From Loxodes magnus (Eukaryota; Ciliophora; Karyorelictea; Loxodida; Loxodidae), in contig CAMPDV010000009.1 in assembly GCA_946699065.1 (NCBI GenBank), positions 1,896,826 through 1,960,825 of the forward strand: a DNA stretch of 64,000 bases, read 5' to 3'. The notes below the pieces were generated by a model. That model did no database searches. It saw nothing but the letters and a program-made list of their open reading frames with translations, and had not been told where the DNA came from. The position numbers were made by a program, and so were the translations under genes. Positions 13,395 to 17,519 of this stretch are shown here, one piece after another (position 1 is the stretch's first letter; each line of letters opens with the position of its first letter).

Positions 13395-15863
13395 ATGGAA
13401 TCTGGCTTCGATTAAGATTTTATAATTTAGCGAGAGTATTTAGAAATAGGAGAGCCAATTGCTAGTGGAGGTTTTGGGACTGTGTATAAAGGAAAATGGT
13501 TAGAGGCCAATGAAGTTGCCATAAAATAGTTATTTATATAGAATCCAACTATTGATACCAATCAAGACTTCTAAAAAGAGTTTACATTATTGAAGAAGTT
13601 ACATCATCCTAATGTGATATAGTTATATGGTTACTGTCCTTAACCGCTAAGTCTAGTGATGGAATTGATGACTCAATCGTTGTTTTAGTTCTTGCACAAT
13701 AAAAACGAGATACCATGGTTATTAAGATATTAAATTAGTTTGAATATAGTAGCTGGCTTATAGTACATACATATGTAAGAAATAATTCACCGTGATTTAA
13801 AAAGCAACAACATTTTATTAGATAGCAGAAACGTGGCTAAGATAACTGATTTGGGATTGGCAAAGATAAAGACTGAGTCAAAGTAATTTAATACAAATAC
13901 AAAAGTGGGCACGATACGTTGGATGGCACCTGAGTTGTTGTTGAGAAAGCCTCAGTATAGTAATAAATCTGACATTTATGCGTTGGGAATTATATTTTGG
14001 GAGATAGCTTCGTAGAAGACTCCTTTTGAGGAAACTAACGAGATAGTCATCTTATAGTTGCTAATGAATGGAGAGAGAGGAAATACCGGTTGATTGTCCC
14101 GAGTAATATGCTTAAATAATCAATGGATGTTGGGTTTAGGAGGTTTAGAATCGGCTCGAAATCGAGTAGATAAAGAAGATGTTGATGGAGTGTATAAAGA
14201 ACTAGAAGTAAATTGACTAATAAGCTTAGTATAATCCTCAGCAATCTTAAAAATGTATATAAAATATTTCATAATAGTAATCATGCAGGTAATAAGTTCA
14301 GGTGATTATTCCTTGGTAGTAGATAGAAGGAATGTAAACGTAAAAATTAGCAAATTTTCCGAATTTAACCTTTGTCGATTTATTATAGTTCTTAAATTAG
14401 ATAAATGGTGAGAATATAAATTTAGTAACGTTAAAGTAAGGTCCTTTAAATTAAACTAATCTCGTTGATTAAGGATAAATCTTGTTAAAACTAACATAAG
14501 TAACTGACTAACAAATTCATGCAAAGTTGAATCAAATAATCCAGCTATGTAGGTCTGAATAAGGAATATCTTAAATAGCCTCAAACTCAATAACAATTTT
14601 AAATTACATGAACTTCCAATTCAGCAATTAAAATCTATATAACATCGACTTAACAAACGCTGATCTCTCTGACACTACCTTCACCAACTGCAAATTCAAT
14701 AATTCCAACCTAACTTCAGCTAATCTCAGAAACTCTAAATTCTTAAACTGTGACTTATCTAACGCCAATCTGTCTTCCATAATCACGGAATAGCCACACA
14801 TATTCACTGGACACTCAAATGTTGTAACTTCAGTGGCCATCTCACCAAGTAATGACTTCATCGTATCGGGAAGTTCTGATAATACGGTGAGATTATGGGA
14901 CATCAAGACAGGTACCTGTAAGACAATGAGTGGTCACACATATTATGTAAATTCTGTGGCTATATCCAGTGATTCAAAGTTCATTGTATCGGGAAGTTCT
15001 GATAATACGGTGAGATTATGGGACATCAAGACAGGTACCTGTAAGACAATGAATGGTCACACACATTATGTATATGCTGTGGCTATATCCAGTGATTCAG
15101 AGTTCATCGTATCGGGAAGTAGAGATAATACGGTGAGACTATGGGACATCAAGACAGGTACCTGTAAGACAATGAATGGTCACATAGATTCTGTATATGC
15201 TGCGGCTATATCCAGTAATTCAGAGTTCATCGTTTCGGGAAGTAGAGATAATACGGTGAGACTATGGGACATCAAGACAGGTACCTGTAAGACAATGAGT
15301 GGTCACACAAATTCTGTGTTATCTGTTGCAATATCCAGTAATTCAGAGTACATCGTATCTGGATCTCATGACACCTCTCTTAGGTTATGGAATGTTAGGA
15401 CATATTAATGTATAAGGGTATTTTCAGGACATGCATCTTCTGTGTTATCAGAAATATTCTCGGGTGATAGCCAATTTATATTATCTGGATCTTATGACAA
15501 GACAATAAGAATATGGAGCATTTCAACAGGATAATGTGTATGTGTGCTATTGGATCATACTGACACTGTAGGTAGTTTATCATTATCAAGGGACAATAAT
15601 TGATTGATATCAAGTAATGGAGATAAGTTATCATGATATTATGGAGCTCAATCAAGTGATTACAATTTTCGAAGCTGGAATATGGGAAGATTATTGAATG
15701 GTGTTGAGAATTTTGGTTAATAATCGGTAAGTTCAAATTCTCATTAATTATTTAGGTGGATTGGAATAAGATATACGGTGACTATGGATTGAGATTTTAG
15801 AATTGTACCATGAATGGCATCAACATGAGTATGGAGGACAGATAGAGATATATAAAGTTTTGA
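13395..15863 (+). CDS. TKL-type protein kinase with pentapeptide repeats and WD40 propeller (one frameshift)
   Basis: With TAA/TAG as Gln, ATG at 13395 opens a protein of about 813 residues. Residues ~16-228 are a protein kinase domain: Gly loop IASGGFGTVYKG, catalytic lysine in VAIK (K44), alpha-C Glu near 62, HRDLKSNNILL (D134), DLG in place of DFG (D152), GTIRWMAPE and a DIYALGIIFWEI helix. The short loops and WMAPE point to the tyrosine-kinase-like (Raf/MLK-like) group. A Gln/Asn-rich linker follows, then pentapeptide repeats at 14608-14780 (LTNADL, SNLTSANL, CDLSNANL), then seven WD40 blades from about 14790. Blades 1-5 are near identical (VSGS.DNTVRLWDIKTGTC). Blade 7 needs TGA at 15601 and 15634 read as Trp (NN-W-LISS, LS-W-YYGA). 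A 29-nt intron at 15727-15755 joins to a last exon ending at TGA 15861-15863. The kinase frame and downstream frame are out of register at 14070-14083. The kinase presumably phosphorylates Ser/Thr targets recruited by the propeller; targets are unknown. Confidence 0.85.
14070..14085 (+). other. Frameshift in kinase C-lobe at a GA run
   Basis: The kinase reads in one frame up to LLMNGER. The following IPVDCPEQYAQIINGCW, the expected end of a TKL C-lobe, lies in the next frame. The break falls in ggagagagagg, a GA dinucleotide run. Restoring family spacing between the Arg and IP needs either two extra bases (one lost GA unit) or one fewer. Possible causes are a real inactivating deletion, a sequencing or assembly error in a simple repeat, or programmed frameshifting. 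The intact sequence on both sides over more than 2 kb favours error or a very recent lesion. Confidence 0.8.
14608..14780 (+). other. Pentapeptide-repeat segment of the kinase gene
   Basis: About 55 codons with Leu/Phe every fifth residue and Ala/Asn/Ser at the -2 position: FSNQNLYNIDLTNADL, then DTTF, NCKF, NSNL, SANL, NSKF, NCDL, NANL. This is the A(N/D)LXX pentapeptide repeat that folds into a right-handed quadrilateral beta helix. It is inserted between the kinase linker and the first WD40 blade without a frame break. Confidence 0.8.
14868..15400 (+). repeat. 123-bp coding tandem repeat (WD40 blades 1-5)
   Basis: The core beginning gataatacggtgaga recurs at 14878, 15001, 15124 and 15247, an exact 123-bp (41-codon) period. 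Each unit encodes one WD40 blade. Near-identity at silent sites shows recent unit duplication or gene conversion. The fifth unit (VSGSHDTSLRLWNVRTYQC) has diverged, and blades 6 and 7 more so. Confidence 0.85.
15727..15755 (+). other. 29-nt spliceosomal intron
   Basis: GTAAGT at 15727 and TTTAG at 15755 bound 29 AT-rich bases. Removing them joins NFGQQS to VDWNKIYGDYGLRFQNC in phase 0. The downstream exon then reads to GINMSMEDRQRYIKF and a TGA. Without splicing the next frames are less protein-like. Donor and acceptor match ciliate consensus; the length is longer than the 15-16 nt introns of heterotrichs such as Stentor. Confidence 0.7.
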
Positions 15864-16908
15864 GACGTTTTTATGGAGTTTAGCATTTGATATTTTATAT
15901 TAAAGAATTTAAAATTAATAAGTTCTTTTTTCTTATTGAGTATGTCTTTCTTTTTATTTTCAAATAAAAAAAAAATAGATTTTTGTGTTTATGTTTTTGC
16001 TTTTTCTATTTCTTTATTTCTTTGAATAATCTTAATTTCGTTTATAAAAAAATTAATTTTATTTTAAATTTTTTCATAAATATTTTTCGAAGTTAAAATT
16101 TTAAGCTTAATTGAAGTAAGAGAAAAAATTTTAAGTTTTTAAATATAGTATTAGAAAATTTTATAAAATATGTCCTAGTTAATTTTTTTTTGATTTTTTA
16201 AGAAGTCGTTATACTTTCTGTTTTTTTGTTGAAGGATCTAGTAATGTTTTTTTTAATCTCATATAATTATTACTTTTTCCAAATTAACATAACATATTCT
16301 TTTATAATAAAAGAAAAAGATTTTTACAAAAAAAATTATTTATGATTCTAATAATTAATTTTTGAATATTTTTCGTTCTCAATATCGCAAATATAAAAAA
16401 TTTCTTTTTTTCGCCGCGTTTCGCAATAAAGATAATTTCTGGGACGAAATTAATCTAAGGAAAATTAATAAAAAAGTCAGCGTGGAAAAAAAATAAGAGA
16501 AAAAGTTAAAAATTAAAAGTGTTTTGAGAATTTCTAAAAAAATTGTTGAAAATCTCGTTTTCATTTTGGTTGTTAAATAATTTTGTTTTGGATTTGACTA
16601 TATTTTTGAAATTTAAAATTAAATTTAAATAAAAAATGAGAGTAAAAAAAGCATTATTGAAAAAAAATCTTGCAAAATTTTAAAAACTTATATACTTTTT
16701 TAGGACGAAAAAAAAATTCTAAAACTGAGTTTAAAGATTTTTTTTTTGATAGAGAATTAATAATCTAAAACGAAAAAAATGTTTAAAAATTGTCATAAAT
16801 GTAAATCATAATAATTGATAAGTTTGTAAAATTAAAAAATCTGCTAAAAATCTAAAAGAACAAAAAAAAGACAAACTTAAAAGAAACAAAAAAAAGCGAA
16901 AAATTAGT
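15864..16908. other. AT-rich spacer with one G/C-richer patch
   Basis: Downstream of the kinase gene the DNA is very AT-rich, with T runs near 15,940-16,050 and A runs near 16,850-16,900. A short patch at about 16,409-16,460 (tcgccgcgtttcgc, then tgggacgaaa) stands out in composition. A plus-strand frame there reads through several G/C-rich codons, but no family is recognised. Nothing else is supported here. Confidence 0.5.
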
Positions 16909-17519
16909 ATGAAAAGTGATAAAGTTCATAAAAGAATAAGTGAAATGAGAAACAATTCTAGGGATAGTAAAAGTGTTATAAAAAATAGATTAAGATATAA
17001 AAATTTCCAAACGTGAAGCTGTTTGAGGACTTGTACTGGACATGCGCACTCAGTTTGATCTATAGCGATCTCTCCGGACCAGAAATGGATTGTCTCTGCA
17101 AGTGCAGATGATACGATCAAAGTCTGGGATTTCCAGACTGGAAGCTGTTTGAGGACTTGTACTGGACATGCGCACTCAGTTTGATCTATAGCGATCTCTC
17201 CGGACCAGAAATGGATTGTCTCTGCAAGTGCAGATGATACGATCAAAGTCTGGGATTTCCAAACGTGAAGCTGTTTGAGGACTTGTACTGGACATGCGCA
17301 CTCAGTTTGATCTATAGCGATCTCTCCGGACCAGAAATGGATTGTCTCTGCAAGTGCAGATGATACGATCAAAGTCTGGGATTTCCAGACTGGAAGCTGT
17401 TTGAGGACTTGTACTGGACATGGGAACTCAGTTTACTCTATAGCGATCTCTCCAAACCAGAAATGGATTGTCTCTGCAAGTAGAGATAAGACGATCAAAG
17501 TCTGGAATTTCTATGCTTA
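16909..17519 (+). pseudogene. Orphan WD40 array, four blades
   Basis: From ATG at 16909 a short basic lead-in runs in frame into four 42-residue WD40 blades of the form [37 protein letters not shown] (shown in pieces; x is TGA). Blades 1-3 are identical in DNA; blade 4 ([30 protein letters not shown]) differs. TGA occurs in frame at 17014, 17056, 17182, 17266 and 17308. At 17056/17182/17308 the fourth blade has TAC (Tyr); at 17014/17266 the alternate junction has GGA (Gly). After KVWNF the frame enters T-rich DNA encoding only Phe/Leu/Ile/Tyr. Four blades cannot close a normal seven-bladed propeller, so this is a partial or dead gene, or an exon whose partners lie elsewhere. If UGA is a strict stop it is certainly dead. 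Confidence 0.7.
17004..17507 (+). repeat. 126-bp tandem repeat, four units
   Basis: The word acttgtactggacatg starts at 17029, 17155, 17281 and 17407: exact 126-bp spacing. Units 1-3 are identical apart from their junctions, which alternate between ttccaaacgtgaag (units 1 and 3) and ttccagactggaag (units 2 and 4). The alternation implies duplication of a 252-bp two-blade block. Each unit encodes one WD40 blade. Confidence 0.9.

Follow-up and report, generated by a model that had tools for sequence, protein, structure and literature searches.

The genetic code of karyorelict ciliates has been described as NCBI table 27: UGA is the sole stop codon and can also encode Trp, and UAA and UAG are codons for Gln (PMC11441545). 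Coding UGA is depleted in karyorelicts over the approximately 20 codons that precede the stop, and the introns of Loxodes magnus are short (mode 17 nt, 93% not exceeding 25 nt) (PMC11441545). Related systems are known from Condylostoma magnum (table 28) and Parduczia sp. According to the part of the source available to us, both resemble Loxodes in that the choice between stop and sense depends on context and in that UGA is read as Trp without a nuclear tRNA-Trp(UCA); Parduczia is itself a karyorelict and resembles Loxodes, whereas Condylostoma, unlike Loxodes, also terminates at UAA and UAG (PMC4967479). Here we consider a gene coding for a protein kinase domain followed by WD40 repeats in a 64,000-nucleotide stretch of L. 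magnus DNA, referred to below as the window (bases 1,896,826-1,960,825 of the contig labeled C9, which terminates at the window's last base). L. magnus belongs to the class Karyorelictea, and its ambiguous UGA is already published along with that of other karyorelicts (table 27, PMC11441545), so the code is not new; what we contribute is a single gene family together with an independent test. We found no departure from table 27, and the accessible part of PMC11441545 makes no mention of this particular gene.

All genome-wide comparisons were made with the contigs of L. magnus itself (705,730,643 bases over 7,843 contigs), and all evidence is DNA sequence alone. The size agrees with the published macronuclear assembly, which is described, in the portion of the paper at hand, as 706 Mbp and rich in tandem repeats (PMC11441545). 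The use of UGA as Trp within genes and as stop at gene ends, with UAA and UAG as Gln, is supported at the level of the genome. To tabulate residues opposite UGA, we aligned 20 fetched matches carrying TGA out of at least 150 Pfam Ras matches. As many as 25 of their 28 TGA codons fell into two conserved Trp columns (the WDTAGQ Trp in 11 cases, the second Trp in 14), and one more aligned with a Trp of Rab7. TGG makes up 2.5% of the one-step neighbors of TGA in these genes, or 7.5% if TGA is counted as former TGG; even at the latter rate, the chance of finding 25 of 28 at Trp through single-base change is 2e-25. The second alignment comprised 28 kinase sequences (20 newly fetched TGA-bearing matches, the window copy and seven other copies). 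Here 25 of 32 TGA codons lay within four conserved Trp columns. TGG accounts for 7.3% of the one-step neighbors of TGA in this family; the chance of the 24 of 31 seen in the 20 new rows is 8e-18. Thus, instead of standing opposite random residues, TGA in both families clusters in Trp columns. This pattern disagrees with NCBI table 6 (the Tetrahymena-like code), where UGA is solely a stop.

The other role of UGA is apparent at gene ends. In the 3' flanks of 13 of the 20 Rab/Ras genes, the first in-frame TGA occurs 0-3 codons after a C-terminal Cys motif, which we take to be a prenylation signal; two further genes end without Cys and five have no such end, perhaps owing to introns. Seven of the 13 genes with the Cys motif also use TGA for a conserved or aligned Trp further inside, so that both meanings are found in the same gene. 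The release factor eRF1 is encoded by two near-identical genes (L064 and L065) of 436 codons, both lacking internal TGA and both ending with TGA. In eRF1, TAA or TAG is the codon both for the glutamine of the GGQ motif and for the Gln of LFGTLQGN. Compared with solved eRF1, GTASNIKS is replaced by GRAQNIKS and YLCDNKF by FLCENTF; these positions are presumably the stop-recognition motifs. The sequence-only reading had proposed that all three stop codons are sense, UGA in a context-dependent manner, and for the genome this proposal is borne out by the Rab/Ras, kinase and eRF1 data. The pervasive in-frame TAA and TAG read as Gln, which it also pointed out, are seen throughout the kinase and WD40 frames, and the eRF1 Gln sites agree.

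How does the window gene compare? Its features are collected in Table 1. The kinase domain starts with ATG at 13395 (Pfam PK_Tyr_Ser-Thr 6.3e-50, Pkinase 3.2e-52). The family is large, with at least 150 kinase matches in the genome and at least 40 DNA matches to the 3' end of the gene. The dN/dS ratio of the kinase part is 0.13-0.42 against six copies, and the family is therefore constrained. We aligned the 3' end of the window gene with 19 fetched paralogous loci, of which 15 are distinct; 14 were parsed for gene structure (L019 was left out). Both TGA codons (15601-15603 and 15634-15636) belong to the reading frame of the WD40 exon. Opposite the former, all 15 distinct paralogues have TGG. 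Opposite the latter, located in a loop of variable length, 13 paralogues have a gap and the remaining two have TGG. Trp in NN-W-LISS, as put forward in the sequence-only reading, is thus well founded, and Trp in LS-W-YYGA less so. The intron with good splice sites and the final exon running to TGA 15861, both part of the same proposal, are confirmed by the intron site common to all 14 parsed paralogues; 29 nt is long for this species given the distribution cited above. Paralogue tails are alike, and nine of the 14 have TGA either in the same terminal position or one codon before it. In the window gene, the two internal TGA codons lie 77 and 66 codons upstream of the terminal one. Taken together, the data make it very probable that L. 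magnus uses the table 27 code, that TGA 15601 (and probably 15634) stands for Trp and that 15861 is the stop.

Several observations weigh against this interpretation. The Rab/Ras and kinase rows were picked for having TGA, so TGA:TGG ratios are unreadable from them. Two of the 28 TGA codons in Rab/Ras genes are off Trp sites (one falls inside an intron-like insert and the other faces Tyr), as are seven of the 32 in kinases (two in an out-of-frame stretch of L125 and five opposite Gln, Lys, Asn and others). Two 3'-end paralogues, L014 and L020, have an extra TGA in a variable stretch, that of L014 being opposite Asn. The terminal stop is out of frame or lost in five of the 14 parsed paralogues (three with a one-base shift, one with TAA and one with CGA). 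Finally, the frame of the window copy changes near 14077, where its GA tract is two bases short, whereas six displayed copies (L009 was left out) are uninterrupted. An intron in place of the frame break was considered and rejected, as the paralogues read straight through. The window copy may be damaged, either by a real 2-base deletion that breaks the kinase frame or by an assembly error at that place, and because of the break it may not be an intact expressed gene.

It might be argued that the code is Tetrahymena-like, with UGA always a stop, and that 15601 and 15634 are mutated TGG codons of a decayed pseudogene. The 2-base break fits such a history, and so do broken relatives (the L125 stretch and the one-base shift near the end in three of the 14 paralogues). 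However, decay would draw TGA from nine one-step neighbors, of which TGG constitutes just the 2.5% (Rab/Ras) and 7.3% (kinase) given above, and most TGA codons are nevertheless at Trp sites, even in Rab/Ras genes with intact C-termini. As a statement on the whole genome, the Tetrahymena-like code is already refuted, and we consider this explanation of the window gene very unlikely. A different possibility is that the code is ambiguous and TGA 15601 is nevertheless the true stop of the window gene, leaving a protein without the last part of the propeller and the tail. UGA is certainly able to terminate in this genome; still, the paralogues carry on with TGG, sharing the intron, the tail and the terminal TGA, and both internal TGA codons are more than 20 codons away from the terminal one, beyond the published depletion zone (PMC11441545). 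Such an early end is accordingly very improbable. A Condylostoma-type code (table 28), where UAA and UAG are sense codons as well but may also terminate, has the least in its favor and can be regarded as most improbable: all 13 Rab/Ras ends with the Cys motif close with TGA, in two cases directly after a TAA or TAG codon.

Under the table 27 code, UGA would be read as Trp when distant from the 3' end of the mRNA and as stop when near the poly(A) tail. In one member of the large kinase/WD40 family, Trp would then be inserted at TGA 15601 and probably at 15634. At the last UGA, termination by eRF1 would prevail with the help of poly(A) proximity, as in the published model. By analogy with published tests of such tRNAs elsewhere, the decoder may be a tRNA-Trp(CCA) with a 4-bp anticodon stem.

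We searched for this decoder with a tRNA-Trp pattern of fixed spacing permitting either CCA or UCA, using the backward pattern as a control. The pattern gave 128 matches against five in the control. All of the 100 matches listed have CCA, and 98 of them represent one sequence in tandem arrays on contigs C67 and C148. The spacing is about 187 bases on C67 and 241 bases on C148, where the array follows a single copy in the opposite direction. In the ARAGORN-analyzed samples, the array tRNAs have a 7-nt loop and an unpaired 27:43 position, A27.C43 on C67 and T27.C43 on C148, while a single tRNA-Trp(CCA) gene on C110 has a 5-bp anticodon stem. Another CCA match (L033, on C12) was discarded, since ARAGORN did not recognize it as a tRNA. 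With the spacing unchanged, a general tRNA-like pattern had 1,061 matches against 75 in its control; the 127 CCA matches amount to about 12% of these sites. A tRNA-Trp(UCA) decoding UGA, which the sequence-only reading had led us to expect, was not found: the only UCA match in the genome (fewer than the five of the control) is not a tRNA according to ARAGORN, although the fixed spacing could miss a divergent gene. The pattern for suppressor tRNA-Gln (UUA/CUA) had 21 matches against 58 in the backward control, and ARAGORN found no tRNA in 12 fetched loci, although the fixed spacing of the pattern is perhaps unsuitable for tRNA-Gln. Within the 64-kb window, ARAGORN found no tRNA genes. Tandem tRNA arrays are not exclusive to Trp, as matches to the tRNA-like pattern also recur in tandem on C55 (902-907 kb), spaced 261 bases apart.

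Judging by the accessible parts of two reports, tRNA-Trp(CCA) with a 4-bp stem has been described in Blastocrithidia nonstop, Condylostoma, Blepharisma, Loxodes and Amoebophrya (PMC13092985, PMC12005148). The 27:43 pair is opened in those tRNAs, just as it is here; what differs here is the presence of two array types (A27.C43 and T27.C43) and a large copy number. The portions of the literature on Loxodes and on 4-bp-stem tRNA-Trp(CCA) that we consulted contain no mention of tandem tRNA-Trp arrays. It is conceivable, though we remain doubtful, that tRNA-Trp(CCA) dosage is part of the recoding, the arrays letting near-cognate decoding outcompete eRF1 at internal UGA. The 27:43 mismatch looks as if selected in this scheme, because both array types leave the position unpaired with a different base 27.

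Two other sources of evidence named in the sequence-only reading turned out to carry less weight. TGA is indeed present at 2287 and in HSV-x-SIAIS of the WD40 fragments. As evidence on the code, however, these fragments were rejected. The one at 2287 is decayed, with TAG replacing the Trp of its WD dipeptide. In the separate repeat units downstream of the gene (17003-17511), three of the four have TGA at HSV-x and the remaining one has TAC (Tyr); a further TGA is matched by GGA (Gly) in two of the four. Likewise, the TGG/TGA pairs between copies A and B of the 7-kb repeat exist at both sites (4628/20736 and 8909/25153), but the repeat had to be set aside in this respect. The copies are separated by 827 substitutions in 5,507 aligned bases, with TGG/TGA-type differences at 10 places (both strands and all frames counted). 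Of 10 long open reading frames scanned in the region, the only one with a Pfam match starts in the WD40 repeat, so that the pairs are uninformative on the code.

Table 1. Features of the window gene, its surroundings and the related loci (window positions unless a contig is named)
Feature	Position	Strand	Basis or remark
N-terminal kinase part, first frame	13395..14078	+	14 TAA/TAG as Gln, no TGA before the frame break
GA-repeat tract with frame break	14066..14085	+	2 bases fewer than in 6 other displayed copies
Second-frame exon: kinase end, pentapeptide-like stretch (by eye), WD40 repeats	14077..15726	+	translation, Pfam WD40 7.3e-71
123-bp tandem unit inside the WD40 exon	14857-15363	+	tandem repeat
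TGA as Trp (NN-W-LISS)	15601..15603	+	TGG in 15/15 distinct paralogues
TGA, probably Trp (LS-W-YYGA), in variable-length loop	15634..15636	+	letters in 2/15 distinct paralogues, both TGG
29-nt intron GTAAGT...TTTAG, phase 0	15727..15755	+	site shared by 14 parsed paralogues, whose introns are 31-40 nt
Final exon, 35 codons and stop TGA 15861-15863	15756..15863	+	stop common to 9/14 parsed paralogues
WD40 repeat of four 126-bp units, outside the gene	17003..17511	+	Tyr and Gly codons in sister units where others have TGA
tRNA-Trp(CCA) tandem arrays	C67 482-491 kb, C148 155-169 kb (L034-L062, L079, L080)		4-bp anticodon stem
Satellite-bearing ends	window 25779-64000; L142, L145, L148, L151, L154-L157, L160, L162, L165-L167, L169, L171, L172, L178, L180		

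Repeats of the WD40 type (126/123 bp) also form arrays of tens of kb, among the matches listed, on C1503, C9, C119, C272, C620 and C1832 (L001-L004), and occur at five fetched contig ends, including those of C4, C18, C31 and C100 (as judged from period, by eye and with BLAST). Many of the array units contain TGA where other units have a Ser, Phe, Cys, Leu or Tyr codon. Many of the listed kinase/WD40 paralogues are a few kb to tens of kb from contig ends (for example on C31, on C56 and at either end of C25), which might point to a subtelomeric family.

The window from 25779 to the contig end is occupied by an 80/159-bp satellite, with GC skew of +0.80 to +0.87 over 28001-64000. For comparison, we fetched 40 contig ends, one of which consists of N; together with the window this gave 40 readable ends. 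The satellite was matched in two comparisons that differed in reference length and cut-off (two of the matches are short). It is present at 19 of the 40 readable ends, with the G-rich strand running outward in 19 of 19 (sign test 3.8e-6). An exact 25-mer of the satellite has 195,214 copies in the genome compared with none for the control; the first 100 listed are confined to the final 7.6 kb of C3, the initial 5.0 kb of C5 and the final 38 kb of C9, all on the outward strand. A different 96-bp tandem repeat is found at the starts of C3 and C56 (L147 and L159; skew -0.66 and -0.67), its plus strand being C-rich at the start, which corresponds to the same polarity. The telomeres and telomerase of L. 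magnus eluded detection, according to the part of PMC11441545 seen, and Loxodes is listed as a potential case of telomerase loss in the available part of a review. The simplest reading is that the satellite would be a terminal repeat, either telomeric or subtelomeric; alternatively, it might represent internal palindromic arrays.

A codon that carries two meanings within a single nucleus is a test of how the ribosome chooses between a tRNA and a release factor. The copy number of the tRNA-Trp arrays and their two mismatch types make the model of competition between the two measurable. In addition, the contig-end satellite is a candidate terminal repeat in a ciliate whose telomeres and telomerase reportedly escaped detection, and as such could add to the field.

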